Source: Diploscapter coronatus
Lineage: Eukaryota > Nematoda > Chromadorea > Rhabditida > Rhabditidae
Direction of reading: 5' to 3'
NCBI GenBank assembly: GCA_964036155.1
Contig: OZ038423.1
Span: 7,207,249-7,271,248 of the forward strand
Length of the DNA: 64,000 nt
The notes beneath the pieces are model-generated. The model made no database searches. It was not told the DNA's origin and worked only from the letters and a program-made list of their open reading frames with translations. The translations under genes and the position numbers were made by a program. Positions 48,501 to 53,859 of this stretch are shown in pieces. How positions within the stretch are numbered: the first letter of the stretch is position 1; each line of letters starts with the position of its first letter.

Positions 48501-49396
48501 CGCTCTTTGGTTTTTCTAAGGCTACTAGTAAGTGTGATCACCAAGGGTGTCCGGAATTCCGATTCCAGGGGTTTTTGGAACTTGAAATCTGATTTCGATT
48601 TCGAAGTTTTCAAAATTCAAATTCCGAATAACCTTGGTGATCACAATAAGACTTTCTATCCACATCCCACTTCTTTGATCAACTTATTCAACATCAATGA
48701 TGCACCTTTTGCAGAGTACCCAATCCCCCAACAGCCTTGGAGCATCTCTACGAGTTCACGAAGGAGAAGATCCACGACATGATGGTAATTGACCTCAACG
48801 GGTTGTGGAAGGAGCTTTTCAGAAATTAGTTCAAATGTTCATTTTCAATCGTTTTCTTGATTTTTGTCCCGTTTTTCACATTCTGCTCAGTTCATAACCC
48901 GGCATCACGAAATGATAGTGAACATTTTCTTCAATAATTAAGCAGAATTTTTAAGAGAAGACTATTTTAACTTGGTCTATAATAGTGCCTAAAAATTTCA
49001 AATTACCACTAATTTCTGAAAAATGTCCTCTATGTCATTTTAGTGATAAATGCAAGTAACGAATATTTTCATAGGGCGCGTTCATACTTAGTTGCATGCA
49101 ACTTGCAATTCGCGTGCAACTCGGCGAAATAGTATGAGAAACGCGGAGAGCGGCCAAATTACAGCAAGTTGCATGCAATTTTGTCCATTCATTCTCTCTT
49201 CATTTTCCGCGCTATTTTGAGCGAGTTGCAAGTTGCATGCAACTGCAACTAAGTATGAACGGGCCCATAGGCCCTGTGTTTTCAGGACGACAACCAGACG
49301 CTGAGTGTGGTGGCTGTCGGAGGCCTGATTGTGATTGTCGCCGTTACGCTCATAATCAAGGCCTACAGAATCAAACAGGAGAAGAAAAATGAATAG
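45551..49396 (+). CDS. ER type I membrane protein with tandem thioredoxin-like domains and KKxx tail
   Basis: Eleven exons give 369 aa: 45551-45649, 45726-45824, 46111-46237, 46979-47070, 47381-47533, 47705-47796, 47843-47905, 48042-48143, 48195-48296, 48715-48784, 49286-49396. A signal peptide (about 1-25) is followed by a charged linker. The first thioredoxin-like fold has LVIFFYDDGRAQCPSCG (a CPSC redox pair near residue 119) and the cis-proline TTFPSLVYY. The second has FVMFYDSEDNGC and DCPTFLLLHRG but lacks a CxxC. One membrane helix near 341-358 follows, and the protein ends KKNE, a dilysine COPI retrieval signal. By analogy with the TMX family it may handle thiols of client proteins in the ER; the exact orthologue is not recognised. 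Introns 3, 9 and 10 each contain a MITE. TTTCAG 9 nt before the ATG suggests trans-splicing. Confidence 0.82.
46667..46897. mobile_element. Tc1/mariner-like element in thioredoxin-like gene intron
   Basis: After TA at 46667-46668 comes CACGGTGCGCCAAAATTA. The right end TAATTATGGCGCACCTTG (ending 46895) is its near-inverse. The length is about 227 bp, with no ORF. Confidence 0.6.
48534..48644. mobile_element. hAT-like MITE with perfect 8-bp target duplication
   Basis: The 95-bp element 48542-48636 has ends CAAGGGTGTCCGGAATT and AATTCCGAATAACCTTG. It is flanked on both sides by an identical GTGATCAC (48534-48541 and 48637-48644). The 8-bp duplication and CA(A/G)GG start are hAT features. The core is TTC/GATT-rich. 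Because GTGATCAC is itself palindromic, the visible hairpin extends through the duplication. Confidence 0.8.
49071..49269. mobile_element. PIF/Harbinger-like MITE in thioredoxin-like gene intron
   Basis: The element 49074-49266 has ends GGGCGCGTTCATACTTAGTT and the inverse with one change (GGGCCC...). ATA flanks both sides (49071-49073 and 49267-49269). It shares GGGCGCGTTCA(G/T)ACTT with the PMS2-intron copy at 9878. Repeats of GTTGCATGCAACT inside extend the hairpin. Confidence 0.8.
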
Positions 49397-51082
49397 ACAA
49401 TTTCGCGAACGTTGAGTTACAAAGCTTTACATTAGGTAAAAGAGAAGAGAAACTGATTTTATTCTTGAAAAATATAAGCTTGCAGCTCAACGAAACAAAC
49501 CATTTCACCCATTTTGAGCAGGAAATCAAAATCGTGCAATGATCAAATTATCATGATTCCACAATAATGCAACCTTCATATATAAATTAGAGAACTTGTG
49601 AGGATCAAGCTTTATGAAGGTTAAAGTTATTTGGAACATGGAATAAATTTTGAAAACTCAACATTCTTGAGTTGTTTATTAGCTAGCTACATGTGTTTTC
49701 CCCAAAATTTCCTAGTTACTCAAATAAAAATTTCCTCCATTCGAGGAGACTTCTATCTGAGTACTTTGAGTTATCTAGTCAATTAGCAATACCCGAATAA
49801 CTAATGACCATAATAAGTTGTTATCTATGTGCCAGAATATCAAACTCTGCGTCTGCGCTCAGCTAAAGTATGCCGGTTTCGTTTTTCTCCTATTCTCTCA
49901 TCTTGACGTCTCCCATTTTTGTGCTCATCACTATCGTGTCTTGCCTTATTTCTCTGTTATCATTCACTTTTCGTGTTTATTTGTTTCTTAAAATTTCTAT
50001 TTAAAAATCGAAATAAACTTTTTATACTATAAAAAATGCAGCATATCCGCTCGTTTTCCTTCGGACGACAACCTGATTTATAATTCGTTGCATTTTGTAA
50101 GAATTGGGACCGGACATCGAAAATTTTGTTTCTGAATGTCCGGGTCCGGTCTGGGTTCCAATTTTTACGGACCGCGTGCATCCTGGTCGCAACACATTTT
50201 CAACAATGAAACTCATTTGGAAACGTCGCAGCATGATTTGGAAGGGTGCGTAGCGTTATCCACCAAAACATCAATTACAATGCTTCCTTTAATCAAAGCC
50301 ACATTTTGAGAGAATAAAGTAAGCGGATAATAGGTAAGAGATAGGATAAGGGTAGGCTAAACTTGGACACGTTTGGTCTCAAATTAAAGGACGCAATAAG
50401 CTGATCACTTTGGGAATAAGACTACCTTAGACTGACATTAGAAAGGGTGGTTCAAATACACGAAAAACAATCATCTTCTGACGAAATAGCGTATAAATTT
50501 GAGAGAGTACAGTCATTATGCTCATTTGACCATTTTTCTTCATTTTGTCATTATTTCATTGCATACGAAAGAAGTGGGCGGAGCCTATTCTAGAAGTTCC
50601 ATGAAAAGTTCCCAAATAATACGATATAGATACTATATATAGTGCGTCCCAAAACTATAGGTACGCTTCATTTTTTAATTATTTTGACACCATAGAGTGA
50701 ACTAATCCGGTTCAATCCCTTAATTTGTTTATGTCTAATTCCTAATCATTTATCAAAGTTATTAATTTTATGATAAGCAAGCGTTGGAAGTTTGTCGATC
50801 CGATATTTGAATCTTGTTGAGAAATATCGTAGCCTATTTTGAATTTACTTCATTATTATGAATAAGAGAGCATTAGACAATGGCGAATCTTAAGTCTGAT
50901 GATAAGATTTGTTCTCGCAAAATATTCGACATCACTATCCTCTTATCAATTCCCATACAATGTGACGCTTGTTTTCTTACTCCCAATGGTTATTGATTTT
51001 TTAAAATTTATTTACGCATGAATGCAGGATTTATTTTCTGAATCAGTACAAATTCTTAAATTAAAAAATTAAAGAATAAAAC
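49397..51082. other. Spacer between thioredoxin-like gene and Hsp70-kelch gene
   Basis: 1.7 kb. AATAAA at 49642-49647 probably ends the upstream gene. A palindromic GGACCGGACAT / ATGTCCGGGTCC remnant lies near 50105-50155. A lone TATAGTGCGTCCCAAAACT, like a mariner end, lies near 50640. No gene is recognised. Base composition becomes AT-richer here and stays so to the right. Confidence 0.5.
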
Positions 51083-53859
51083 ATGATCTACATCGGCATC
51101 GACCTGGGCACGACATATTCGCGTGTTTCTGTGGTTGAGGATAGACGGCCTGTTGTGATTGTTTCTGACGATGGTCTGTTTTTATTATTTTCTAAGAGTA
51201 TTCTAAAATTCTAGGCAACCTCAACATTCCTTCAGTAGTCGCGTACTGTGAATCGGAAATTTTAGTCGGTAATGATGTTTTGCACTGCGATACAGACCTG
51301 TCGAATATTTTATATGGTGAGAAATTATATTTCTGAAAAGTCGTGATAAAGTTCATTAAAATAGATTCAAAACGTTTGATTGGTTGGAAATCTCTGGTTG
51401 ATTTGCCCATTGCTGAACATCAAAATCTTTGGACATTTAACGTCGACGCGAGAGATGTAATATATTCAAGATATTCACGATTTTCTTCAAAGTGGCAATT
51501 TAGGATTTTTGTGGATACGTGCTGAACAAAGGCAAACAAAATGAACGGTTCATCAAGGCAGAAGAAGTTTTGGCGGAAATTTTTAAGAAATTAAAGACTA
51601 CAGCCGAAGTAAATAATGATTTTATAGTGAAAGCTAAAGATATTTGTTCAGAGCTATCTAAATAAACGAGTAACTGGTGCCGTTGTTATAGTGCCTGCAT
51701 TATTCAATTCTGACCAAATCTCTGCAACGAAAAGGGCCGTCGAATTGGCTGATCTTGAATTGAAATATTTACTACACGAACCTACTGCAGCTGCGATTGC
51801 TTACAATCATAAAGCTAAATTAGGAAATTCGAAGATCTTAATCTTTGATTTTGGAGGAGGTGTTTAGCTACAAATTCACACATTTATCACTTGATTTAGG
51901 AACTCTTGATATAAGCGTCGCTGAAATAAAGAACAGAAAAATTCGGGTAAAAGCTGTAACTGGTGACGGTCACTTAGGTTAGGGTTAGAATTATTAATAA
52001 AGAATCGATTATCCGAATTTTTAGGAGGTCAAGATATCGACAGCAAAATAATGAAATATGCAAATGATATTTCCATGCAAGAATCGGAGTTTGATATTAT
52101 TCAAAGACCAAGACTTATAAAGCGACTTCGGACTGTTTGTAGGGAGGCTAAAGAAGCTCTTTCATTCCAAATCGAGTCATATAATATCAATGCAAGAATC
52201 TTTTGATTTATCTGCATATTGAGCTGAATAATATCATAAGCAAATTTTAGATGGATATAAATGATGAACGAGAAGTAAATGTAGAACTAACCAAAGTTAA
52301 ATTTAACGAACTATGCAATGAATTATTCAGCAAATCGATGGAATTAGTTGATAAAGGGCTCAACACTGCGCGGATATCACCAGAGCAGTTAGATCATGTG
52401 GTGATTCTGAACTTTATGCTCGATAATCAAATAAAGTTCCCTTCATTACAGATCTTAGTTGGTGGATCAACTCGAATTCCAAAAATTCAAGAACTTTTGT
52501 CGCATAAATTTGGCCCTACAAAACTAAAATTTGACCTAAATCCCGACGAGACGGTAGCTCATGGAACTGCGATTATCGCAAATGCTTTAGAGGTTTGAAA
52601 ACATAATTTATTACTAAAATGGGAGTGATAATTTCAGAAAGAAACTGAAATCCCATTGATTAATAATACAATCAATGAATTAGTCCAAAATATCAATAAT
52701 TTGCAATTTTATGGAGACGATTCATTCAATAATTCACATAAAATTTTATTTTACCGTAAGAAATTATGTTGAAAGCCAAGTAAGAGACTTTGAAACGATT
52801 TATAATAATTTAGTTTATTATCGAAGCAATTATAAAGATGAAGAAAGAATATGCTTATTCAATTCATATTCCTGCTCAGTAGAAGAGGTTACAAAATTCC
52901 ACAATTGGCATTTTCCATATAAAGCAGAAATTACACAGAATAAAGTGAGTTCTTATGTTCCTTATTTTGAATAATTTCTCATATTTCAGATTTTTGGAAT
53001 TAACGGTAAAAATAAATCATTTGAAATATATGACTTGAATACTCGACAAATTTCAACAGGTCTGCTCAACAAATTTGTGAATTATCGATTCAAAGAATTT
53101 TACAGGTCCAGATCCTCCTGAATGGCGTGGTGGTGCATCTATGGCTTATTTCAGAGACAAATTGTACTATTTGGGTGGAGAGGATCCTGGAACAAAGAAA
53201 AATACGAATCGAGTTGATGTAATAAGATCGAGTGAAAGTCTATGTAATAATTTATTCAGGTTTTAACAGATGGACAATGGCAAACAGGGCCTGCTTTTCC
53301 CCGTCCAATTCGTTATGCTCAAACAATAACATGCGATGGAATTTTATACAGTCACATTATAGCATATTCATTATTGTAATTATGGATATTCAGTTATTGA
53401 TGGTCATGAAAGTAGAAAGATATATCGATTATCAGACGATGAACGGGAATGGGTTGAAATCGGAGAGATTCCAGAAGAACGAGATTTTTTTGGACTTGCA
53501 TCGCTAAATGGAAAAATTTACATAACTGGAGGATGGAAAATGTTAGTATTTTATGATAAATAATGTATCATTATATACTTAGGCGTGGTGTATCAGAATC
53601 CTGTCTGCATTTCGATCCCTCAGCTCCAGATGGCAATCGAATTTCTCAAATCGCAGATATGAATTATGCAAGATCCAATCATTCGCTCATTGTCGCTAAC
53701 GGGAAATTGTATGCAATCGGAGGGTGAGCTGAGATTTTGCATATCTTTATACGAAATATTCGTTAGCTTAGATTTCAAAAACCCTCTATGGAACATTTTT
53801 GCAATTCAATCGAGGAATACGATCTACAAACGAATAAATGGCGAAAAGTAGAAAATTGA
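51083..53859 (+). CDS. Chimeric Hsp70 ATPase-domain / kelch-repeat protein
   Basis: Seventeen exons join in one frame to 677 aa: 51083-51173, 51215-51316, 51365-51456, 51504-51608, 51652-51859, 51900-51977, 52025-52191, 52251-52400, 52452-52592, 52638-52755, 52814-52944, 52990-53059, 53106-53218, 53260-53350, 53394-53541, 53583-53723, 53772-53859. Residues 1-378 form a complete Hsp70 nucleotide-binding domain: [14 protein letters not shown] (phosphate 1), [40 protein letters not shown] (phosphate 2) and [10 protein letters not shown] (adenosine). The beta substrate-binding domain expected next is absent. A linker of about 80 residues leads to kelch-type repeats ([27 protein letters not shown], each followed by a Trp such as QW, REW, NKW). 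The intron at 52192-52250 starts with GC. AATAAA lies 5 nt after the stop. An ATP-driven adaptor role is inference only. Confidence 0.82.

Follow-up and report, generated by a model that had tools for sequence, protein, structure and literature searches.

The Hsp70 cycle is usually understood as an ATPase that drives a peptide clamp, and a gene of the nematode Diploscapter coronatus raises the question of what such an ATPase does when it is joined to a kelch propeller instead. The gene lies at positions 51083-53859 of a 64,000-nucleotide stretch of contig OZ038423.1 (assembly GCA_964036155.1, positions 7,207,249 to 7,271,248, forward strand; here called the window, C2:7207249-7271248), and a first-pass annotation made from the letters alone had read it as an Hsp70 nucleotide-binding domain (NBD) fused to kelch strands, with the substrate-binding domain missing. 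Here, we report that dozens of genes have a variable propeller in place of the clamp, and we lean, with slightly better than even confidence, towards reading the window gene as a member of a diversifying, adaptor-like Diploscapter family in which the Hsp70 ATPase stands in the place of an F-box.

The 17 exons and 16 introns of the window gene, modelled on the forward strand with a custom spliced aligner that permits GC donors, join in a single frame with no stop or frameshift into a protein of 676 residues, or of 677 if the intron 8 donor is taken at 52401 rather than 52398 and one Val is gained; because relatives in Diploscapter pachys read DHVILVGG at this donor, 677 residues, the length first annotated, is probably right. 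A profile search of the joined protein, which the annotation had proposed as a check, places Pfam HSP70 (PF00012, E 5.2e-93) on residues 4-379, covering profile positions 2-378 of 599, and kelch families on the C-terminal remainder, both above the cut-off (Kelch_1 PF01344, E 1.5e-21; PF24681, E 4.5e-19). The HSP70 match ceases at the end of the NBD, and no Hsp70 substrate-binding domain or lid, F-box, BTB or BACK domain was found in the window protein by Pfam, nor any NACHT or NB-ARC family at E <= 0.001; the ATPase is of the Hsp70 type. These matches bear out the motifs annotated in residues 1-378 as well as the missing substrate-binding domain, and because that domain is absent the NBD would be unable to clamp peptides. 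All ten catalytic and adenosine-site residues examined are intact in the window copy, as had been stated of the catalytic motifs; over the 20 fused loci described below, six of these sites are kept in 20/20 and three in 19/20, and one reads Asp in 13 loci and Glu in 7. The Lys of SKRLIG in exon 3 is the equivalent of K71 in Hsc70, whose numbering is used for all the ATPase sites. The conserved hydrophobic interdomain linker of Hsp70s reads DLLLLDV; no DLLLL-type linker was found at the 20 loci, which read an EK....PLINNT-like sequence with variants. The family NBD thus has the ATPase motifs of cytosolic Hsp70s (HSPA1, HSC70), from which the window protein differs in having a propeller and no substrate-binding domain, lid or such linker; ordinary Hsp70s are about 39-42% identical among the matches listed.

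Kelch repeats cover most of exons 11-17 by Pfam, by homology and by the AlphaFold model of a D. pachys relative (P0121); the strand pairs first annotated as at least three are present, and that count was too low. In this model the NBD is confident and matches Hsc70 and BiP NBD structures (TM by target about 0.86), residues 381-453 have pLDDT <50 and are either flexible or poorly predicted owing to a shallow alignment, and consecutive four-strand blades run from residue 454 with block pLDDT 46-92; the model lacks the last blades and its propeller part is unreliable before 454. Predicted structures are weak in the propeller, having no deep alignments behind them. By strand count the full protein would close as about six blades, and we infer ATP binding, six-bladed closure and the ligand face from homology.

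The fusion recurs through the genome. In the 169.7 Mb, three-contig assembly, where the best 150 of 329 NBD candidates and the best 150 of 1219 propeller candidates were scored (counts being lower bounds), full-length models of the same type were found at 20 non-overlapping loci (numbered with L; D. pachys proteins are numbered with P). The 20 include the window gene and its counterpart on the other chromosome (L049, C1:7.63 Mb; same 17-exon structure, 87.6% identical residues), and 19 have no stop or frameshift, L059 having one in-frame stop. Left out from 20 initial regions were L055 (a fragment of the L056 locus), L062 (which contains L016), and L064 and L067 (an NBD, with no propeller seen). 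Among the best NBD matches, picked by NBD alone, 13 of 18 distinct loci run into linker or propeller exons (the window and the L049 locus among them), and at least 55 of the 150 scored NBD exon-5 matches have a linker or propeller match 0.3-3 kb downstream on the same strand, against 2 upstream and 0 on the opposite strand in the controls. Because NBD loci with no propeller seen (L009, L021, L024, L025, and L067 beside L059) nest among fused loci in the NBD tree, either the propeller has been gained or lost repeatedly or it is situated beyond the DNA examined.

The same architecture, which the annotation had proposed to seek in related nematodes, is present in the independently annotated D. 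pachys. P0121 (WR25_19419) carries NBD, linker and propeller in a single protein of 610 residues, with kelch matches that are partial as the protein ends early; P0001, P0002, P0003 and P0004 hold HSP70 and kelch domains together, and P0012, P0014, P0034, P0118, P0123 and others join the NBD to exon 10 at the same place. Among the matches listed, identity to the window protein reaches no more than 68% in D. pachys, and identity of P0121 to sequences of the genome that holds the window no more than 71%. No HSP70-kelch protein outside Diploscapter was present among the best 120 of 177 matches, the best 120 of 7972 and 30 further listed. Chance is excluded because the same model stands at 20 non-overlapping loci, and the assembly join of two genes that had been named as a danger is refuted because the fusion repeats across the genome and in D. 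pachys (WR25_19419); at the level of sequence, the fusion is confirmed as real. As a separate observation, P0131, P0137, P0138, P0003 and P0023 carry, after the family NBD or the propeller, another Hsp70-like domain that has diverged strongly (AIDIGTSKCKIA or a similar sequence); it would be either an additional fusion or a product of merged neighbouring genes.

The propeller is shared with other N-terminal heads. A further 20 propeller sequences were collected (L030-L040, L042-L048, L069, L070), some with an N-terminal domain not identified; L033 has an NBD exon nearby, and the models of L034 and L038 contain a stop and a frameshift, respectively. An F-box-like domain lies upstream of the propeller in L046 (E 4.5e-6, above the Pfam cut-off), L042 (3e-5) and L032 (0.004; the latter two below it). 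A query made of the F-box and the start of the propeller gave at least 167 matches from 150 scored candidates, all listed ones beginning in the F-box part and part of them extending to propeller strands; D. pachys also has such proteins, several of them named 'F-box domain-containing', and the F-box-like form looks like the most numerous head. At L069 and L070 a single open model runs from a Ser/Thr kinase into the propeller, whose introns are at the same positions, and a propeller match lies at most 5 kb downstream of at least 4 of 26 Ser/Thr kinase matches. At L036, L043 and L047, which are tandem kelch genes, a second propeller begins in frame after the first, and L037 also has upstream propeller exons, with no in-frame join seen. 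The 26 kinase matches are 64-77% identical to the D. pachys query, 22 of them having no propeller within 5 kb downstream among the matches listed, and L030 and P0138 share a stretch (MPNFYDFQNKEIKRIIAGMF... / LKMPDFYNSQNEQIRIIIAAIF...) of which the L030 version has no Pfam match.

By tree and by pairwise divergence, NBD and propeller show discordant histories, with the apparent switch near intron 9, at the module junction. Over the 190 pairs of full-length loci median synonymous divergence (dS) reaches a saturated 2.28 for the NBD, against 0.29 for the propeller; NBD dS is more than twice propeller dS in 150 pairs and the reverse holds in 1. The two trees have 3 of 17 splits in common, and in approximately unbiased (AU) tests the propeller tree is rejected by the NBD data (p 0.0023) and the NBD tree by the propeller data (p 6e-10). 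L011 and L012 are 96.3% identical in NBD residues and 65.8% in the propeller, with identities by exon of 0.95-1.0 in exons 2-8, 0.94 in exon 9 and 0.76-0.86 beyond; the window copy has the reverse pattern against L051 and L052 (about 0.75 over exons 1-9, mean 0.84-0.86 beyond), and the identity of L053 and L054 falls past the junction. Exon exchange and gene conversion near intron 9 would both fit.

Selection was estimated by counting, ignoring phylogeny and recombination, from ratios of nonsynonymous to synonymous change (dN/dS and pN/pS). Median dN/dS over the 190 pairs is 0.12 in the NBD, 0.51 in the linker and first propeller strands and 0.66 in the remaining propeller; between the window copy and its counterpart, whose aligned introns show 75 differences in 743 sites, the respective values are 0.31, 0.24 and 0.62. 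On these counts the ATPase domain is under strong purifying selection. A pseudogene or non-functional family, its copy number maintained by gene conversion or a mobile element, would account for the abundance of propeller copies (150/150 scored candidates matched the propeller query, these being the best 150 of 1219) and for the stops in L059 and L034 and the frameshift in L038, but we regard it as highly improbable when 19 of the 20 full-length loci are intact and the median NBD ratio is so low.

Amino-acid change is concentrated on certain propeller positions. The most variable sites are the two residues ahead of strand b in successive blades (PPEWR[GG]A, PI[RY]A, EER[DF]F and YAR[SN]H), and loops vary too, e.g. 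after YYLGG, IDG and ITGG. Eight presumed-face positions, which were chosen after the variability list had been seen, give a pN/pS of 1.61 against 0.62 for the other propeller positions and 0.64 for the N-terminal strands (pooled, 40 sequences), with 0.34 for the NBD (20 loci), and 0 of 20000 random eight-site sets reached their pN. By half, the face ratio is 1.36 in the Hsp70-fused sequences (bootstrap 1.13-1.61) and 1.94 in the others (1.6-2.43). The variable pairs appear to fall at the positions of KEAP1 S555-A556 and S602-G603, and the equivalent KEAP1 residues contact its ligand. The propeller of L051 matches the designed SAKe6 (E 2.3e-44), KLHL3 (4.1e-23) and KEAP1 (2.1e-17); unlike KEAP1 and the KLHL proteins, the window protein has no BTB/BACK part.

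In F-box-kelch proteins the propeller binds a target and the F-box recruits SCF. By this likeness, the C-terminal kelch propeller would be a recognition module with a diversifying ligand face, swapped among genes near the intron that precedes it, and the N-terminal module would set the fate of the bound target: presumably SCF ubiquitination with an F-box-like head, with a Ser/Thr kinase in a few genes and a second propeller in some. In the window gene the head would be an Hsp70 ATPase domain whose peptide-binding half has been lost. The propeller of this gene would bind a fast-changing target, and its ATPase, cycling between ATP and ADP, would recruit the partners of Hsp70 NBDs (J-proteins, exchange factors, BAG proteins) or, alternatively, act as an ATP-dependent switch; recruitment of these partners to propeller-bound targets seems the most likely function, with the switch next. 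The fast-changing predicted binding surfaces suggest recognition proteins and not ordinary heat-shock chaperones, and, because the face sites vary, argue by analogy for changing targets such as microbial proteins; the NBD partners, the targets and any immune or defence role we only infer. The annotation had supposed that the chaperone ATP cycle is coupled to an interaction propeller in place of a peptide-binding groove: of this the architecture, the missing clamp and the intact ATPase motifs stand, and the single transcript is still read from sequence, across a weak junction donor.

Nematode F-box adaptor families and F-box-kelch proteins are, as far as the consulted parts of the sources go, similarly large and fast-evolving, with a conserved N-terminal part and a diversifying C-terminal substrate part; they differ in having an F-box where the window gene has an Hsp70 ATPase, and the Caenorhabditis families use FTH/FBA2 substrate domains, not kelch. 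In the same parts of those papers the C-terminal substrate domains are described as under positive selection and a microbial-target explanation is proposed (PMC8665587, PMC12062965; both cite Thomas 2006 on these families). A broader version of our reading, which we offer tentatively and hold to be rather doubtful as a whole, is one of combinatorial intracellular recognition: a repertoire of hypervariable propellers, probably numbering hundreds of copies, would be wired, by exchange near one intron, to ubiquitin-adaptor, kinase, Hsp70 ATPase and second-propeller heads, the Hsp70 form being an ATPase-switch receptor that works like an NLR, to which it is unrelated. Perhaps the weak junction intron would govern how much bare ATPase is made relative to receptor, and this family would account for much of the Hsp70 expansion published as 'heat-adaptive'.

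HSPA13 (STCH) is one conserved gene and not an expanded family. Like the window family it is an animal Hsp70 that keeps the NBD without a substrate-binding domain, and it differs in being an ER protein without a propeller, whereas the window model continues past the NBD into one; by analogy with what is argued for HSPA13 in the consulted part of its source, the NBD partner surfaces may be kept here (PMC9691929). A regulatory decoy, in which the clamp-less NBD would sequester J-proteins or exchange factors by titration, an idea also considered for HSPA13, with the propeller serving only to place it, would leave unexplained both the hypervariable positions and the presence of the same propeller on F-box and kinase heads, and is very unlikely in our estimate.

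Several observations weigh against the adaptor-like reading, the first of them at the junction itself. The donor of intron 9 is weak, reading GTTTGA in 10/20 loci (the window included), GCTTGA in 4 (L049, L050, L052 and L068) and other sequences in 6, none of them GT[AG]AG, and if the intron is retained its second codon is a stop in 15/20 loci. This weak donor lowered our confidence in the adaptor-like reading and raised the standing of two separate products, namely an Hsp70-domain gene that stops just past exon 9 with intron 9 retained (...ALEV-stop here) and a kelch part forming its own gene, belonging to an operon with the first, or joined in some transcripts only. D. pachys P0004 and P0088 point the same way, suggesting that adjacent genes may be merged in annotations of this group. 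We nevertheless consider two products quite unlikely: intron 9 is of phase 0 in 20/20 loci and 40-47 nt long in 18 of them (228 nt in L065, 429 nt in L059), 5/20 loci keep GT yet have no stop at the second codon of the retained frame, dN/dS is 0.24 over the linker and first strands, and the first residue of exon 10 is Lys at every locus, with in-frame Met codons missing from this exon in five loci, one of them the window copy. That the kelch part has a start of its own, which the annotation had named as evidence that would count against it, is thus unlikely in the window copy. As a control for the weak donor, a GT[AG]AG donor is likewise missing from every locus at introns 1, 5, 8, 12, 14 and 15, and 8 of the 16 introns show some GC donors, intron 9 having the most. 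Splicing across intron 9 is likely on this comparison, and an NBD-only protein could possibly arise as well because the retained intron gives an early stop in 15 of the 20 loci.

On the same side of the balance, 5 of the 18 best NBD loci (L009, L021, L024, L025 and L027) have no propeller within the DNA examined, Glu replaces one ATPase-site Asp in the seven loci mentioned, and the propeller fold is predicted solely for a D. pachys relative without the last blades. The late choice of the eight face sites favours the effect size; sites shifted by one residue in either direction also give ratios above 1, and shifts of -2 and -3 give high ratios on a small pS in the Hsp70-fused half. Among six pairs checked by exon or window, L057/L060 and window/counterpart have no similarity switch, and the contrast in dS between NBD and propeller is compatible with gene conversion too. 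Heat-shock elements, finally, show no enrichment in the upstream DNA of 24 family members (22.2 kb with 17 TTCnnGAA, 0.77/kb, vs 0.86/kb in the window), a point that also tells against a role in heat adaptation.

Such a role has been proposed for the Hsp70 genes of this genus. Weinstein et al. (2019; PMC6872716) placed 59 Diploscapter genes in a Cluster III under positive selection and explained them by heat and thermotolerance; in the parts consulted, the word kelch is absent from the main text, and sections 8 and 28 make no mention of a propeller or a missing substrate-binding domain. WR25_05901 (P0131), taken from the branches of clusters II and III in Table 3 of that paper, falls into one NBD clade with the 20 kelch-fused loci (support 0.895) and continues into a second, divergent Hsp70-like domain, not a propeller. 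Through this gene, Cluster III probably corresponds to the divergent NBD clade that holds the window gene, as far as the consulted parts of the paper go, and the published expansion probably includes the genes described here. A proteostasis adaptor, in which the propeller would steer co-chaperones of Hsp70 towards certain proteins, misfolded or of the host, and the family would have expanded as part of heat adaptation, draws on that published link to thermotolerance, on the place of WR25_05901 in the NBD clade and on a TTCTAGAA at 50588 of the window copy, with a TATA at about 50634. It is unlikely in our view, as the peptide-binding half is missing from these proteins, heat-shock elements are not enriched upstream, and a general proteostasis target would not predict hypervariable binding positions. 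The two elements occupy window 50588-50640: the TTCTAGAA heat-shock-element core is some 495 bp ahead of the start codon, and the TATA follows about 46 bp downstream of the core. No TTCTAGAA was found in the 522-1000 bp of upstream DNA of the 23 other family members examined.

No paper describing an HSP70-kelch fusion was found by title or abstract in the open-licence literature. New here, from comparison of the sequences, are the sharing of the propeller with other heads, the conflicting module trees and the hypervariable presumed face; the family nature of the fusion, the propeller shared with F-box and kinase genes and the hypervariable face go beyond the first-pass annotation. The heat-adaptation genes of Diploscapter probably include many proteins unable to act as ordinary Hsp70 chaperones. 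If these proteins are functional, an Hsp70 ATPase can act as a switch for a different binding module. A recognition family whose effector heads can be exchanged would offer a natural experiment in how intracellular receptors are put together. Coordinates of the window gene are collected in Table 1.

Table 1. Features of the Hsp70-kelch gene, in window positions.
Feature	Position	Strand	Description	Basis
Whole gene	51083..53859	+	Hsp70 NBD, linker and kelch propeller; 676 or 677 aa	aligner model, Pfam
Exon 1	51083..51173	+	start ATG; phosphate-1 motif GIDLGTTYS	aligner model
Exon 2	51215..51316	+	NBD	aligner model
Exon 3	51365..51456	+	NBD; SKRLIG	aligner model, site alignment
Exon 4	51504..51608	+	NBD	aligner model
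Exon 5	51652..51859	+	NBD; phosphate-2 motif FDFGGG	aligner model, site alignment
Exon 6	51900..51977	+	NBD	aligner model
Exon 7	52025..52191	+	NBD	aligner model
Intron 7	52192..52250	+	GC-AG type (GCAAGA...TTTTAG)	aligner model, 20-locus comparison
Exon 8	52251..52400	+	NBD; ends at 52397 (676-aa model) or 52400 (Val of DHVILVGG included)	aligner model, D. pachys relatives
Exon 9	52452..52592	+	end of NBD; adenosine motif	aligner model, site alignment
Intron 9	52593..52637	+	module junction; phase 0, 45 nt, weak donor GTTTGA	locus comparison
Exon 10	52638..52755	+	linker; no substrate-binding domain, no DLLLL-type Hsp70 linker	aligner model, site alignment
Intron 10	52756..52813	+		aligner model
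Exon 11	52814..52944	+	first propeller strands (predicted from P0121 model)	aligner model, P0121 structure model
Exon 12	52990..53059	+	propeller	aligner model
Exon 13	53106..53218	+	propeller blade; hypervariable pair PPEWR[GG]ASMAYF	variability and pN/pS analysis
Exon 14	53260..53350	+	propeller; hypervariable pair PRPI[RY]AQTIT	variability and pN/pS analysis
Exon 15	53394..53541	+	propeller; hypervariable pair PEER[DF]FGLAS	variability and pN/pS analysis
Exon 16	53583..53723	+	kelch blade; hypervariable pair NYAR[SN]HSLIV; YAIGG	Pfam, variability and pN/pS analysis
Exon 17	53772..53859	+	last kelch strands; stop TGA	aligner model, Pfam

The models contain unusually many GC donors, at 17 of 319 intron sites over the 20 fused loci; the window copy has one, at 52192, where the intron 7 donor reads GC in this copy and in its counterpart L049 and GT in the other 18 loci. 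Two draft assignments were dropped once paralogs had been compared: a frameshift at 52186, when a GC-AG intron 7 was allowed, and a reading of 52757-52816 as a coding remnant of the Hsp70 lid, when intron 10 (the sixteenth intron) was allowed. Early genome queries still contained these two stretches. Upstream of the gene, a nest of inverted repeats, 23-24 nt long and 96% complementary, spans 193 bp at 49074-49266 and resembles a small non-autonomous DNA transposon, and a further inverted repeat at 48533-48645 has 26-nt arms that are 88% complementary, with 61 nt between them.

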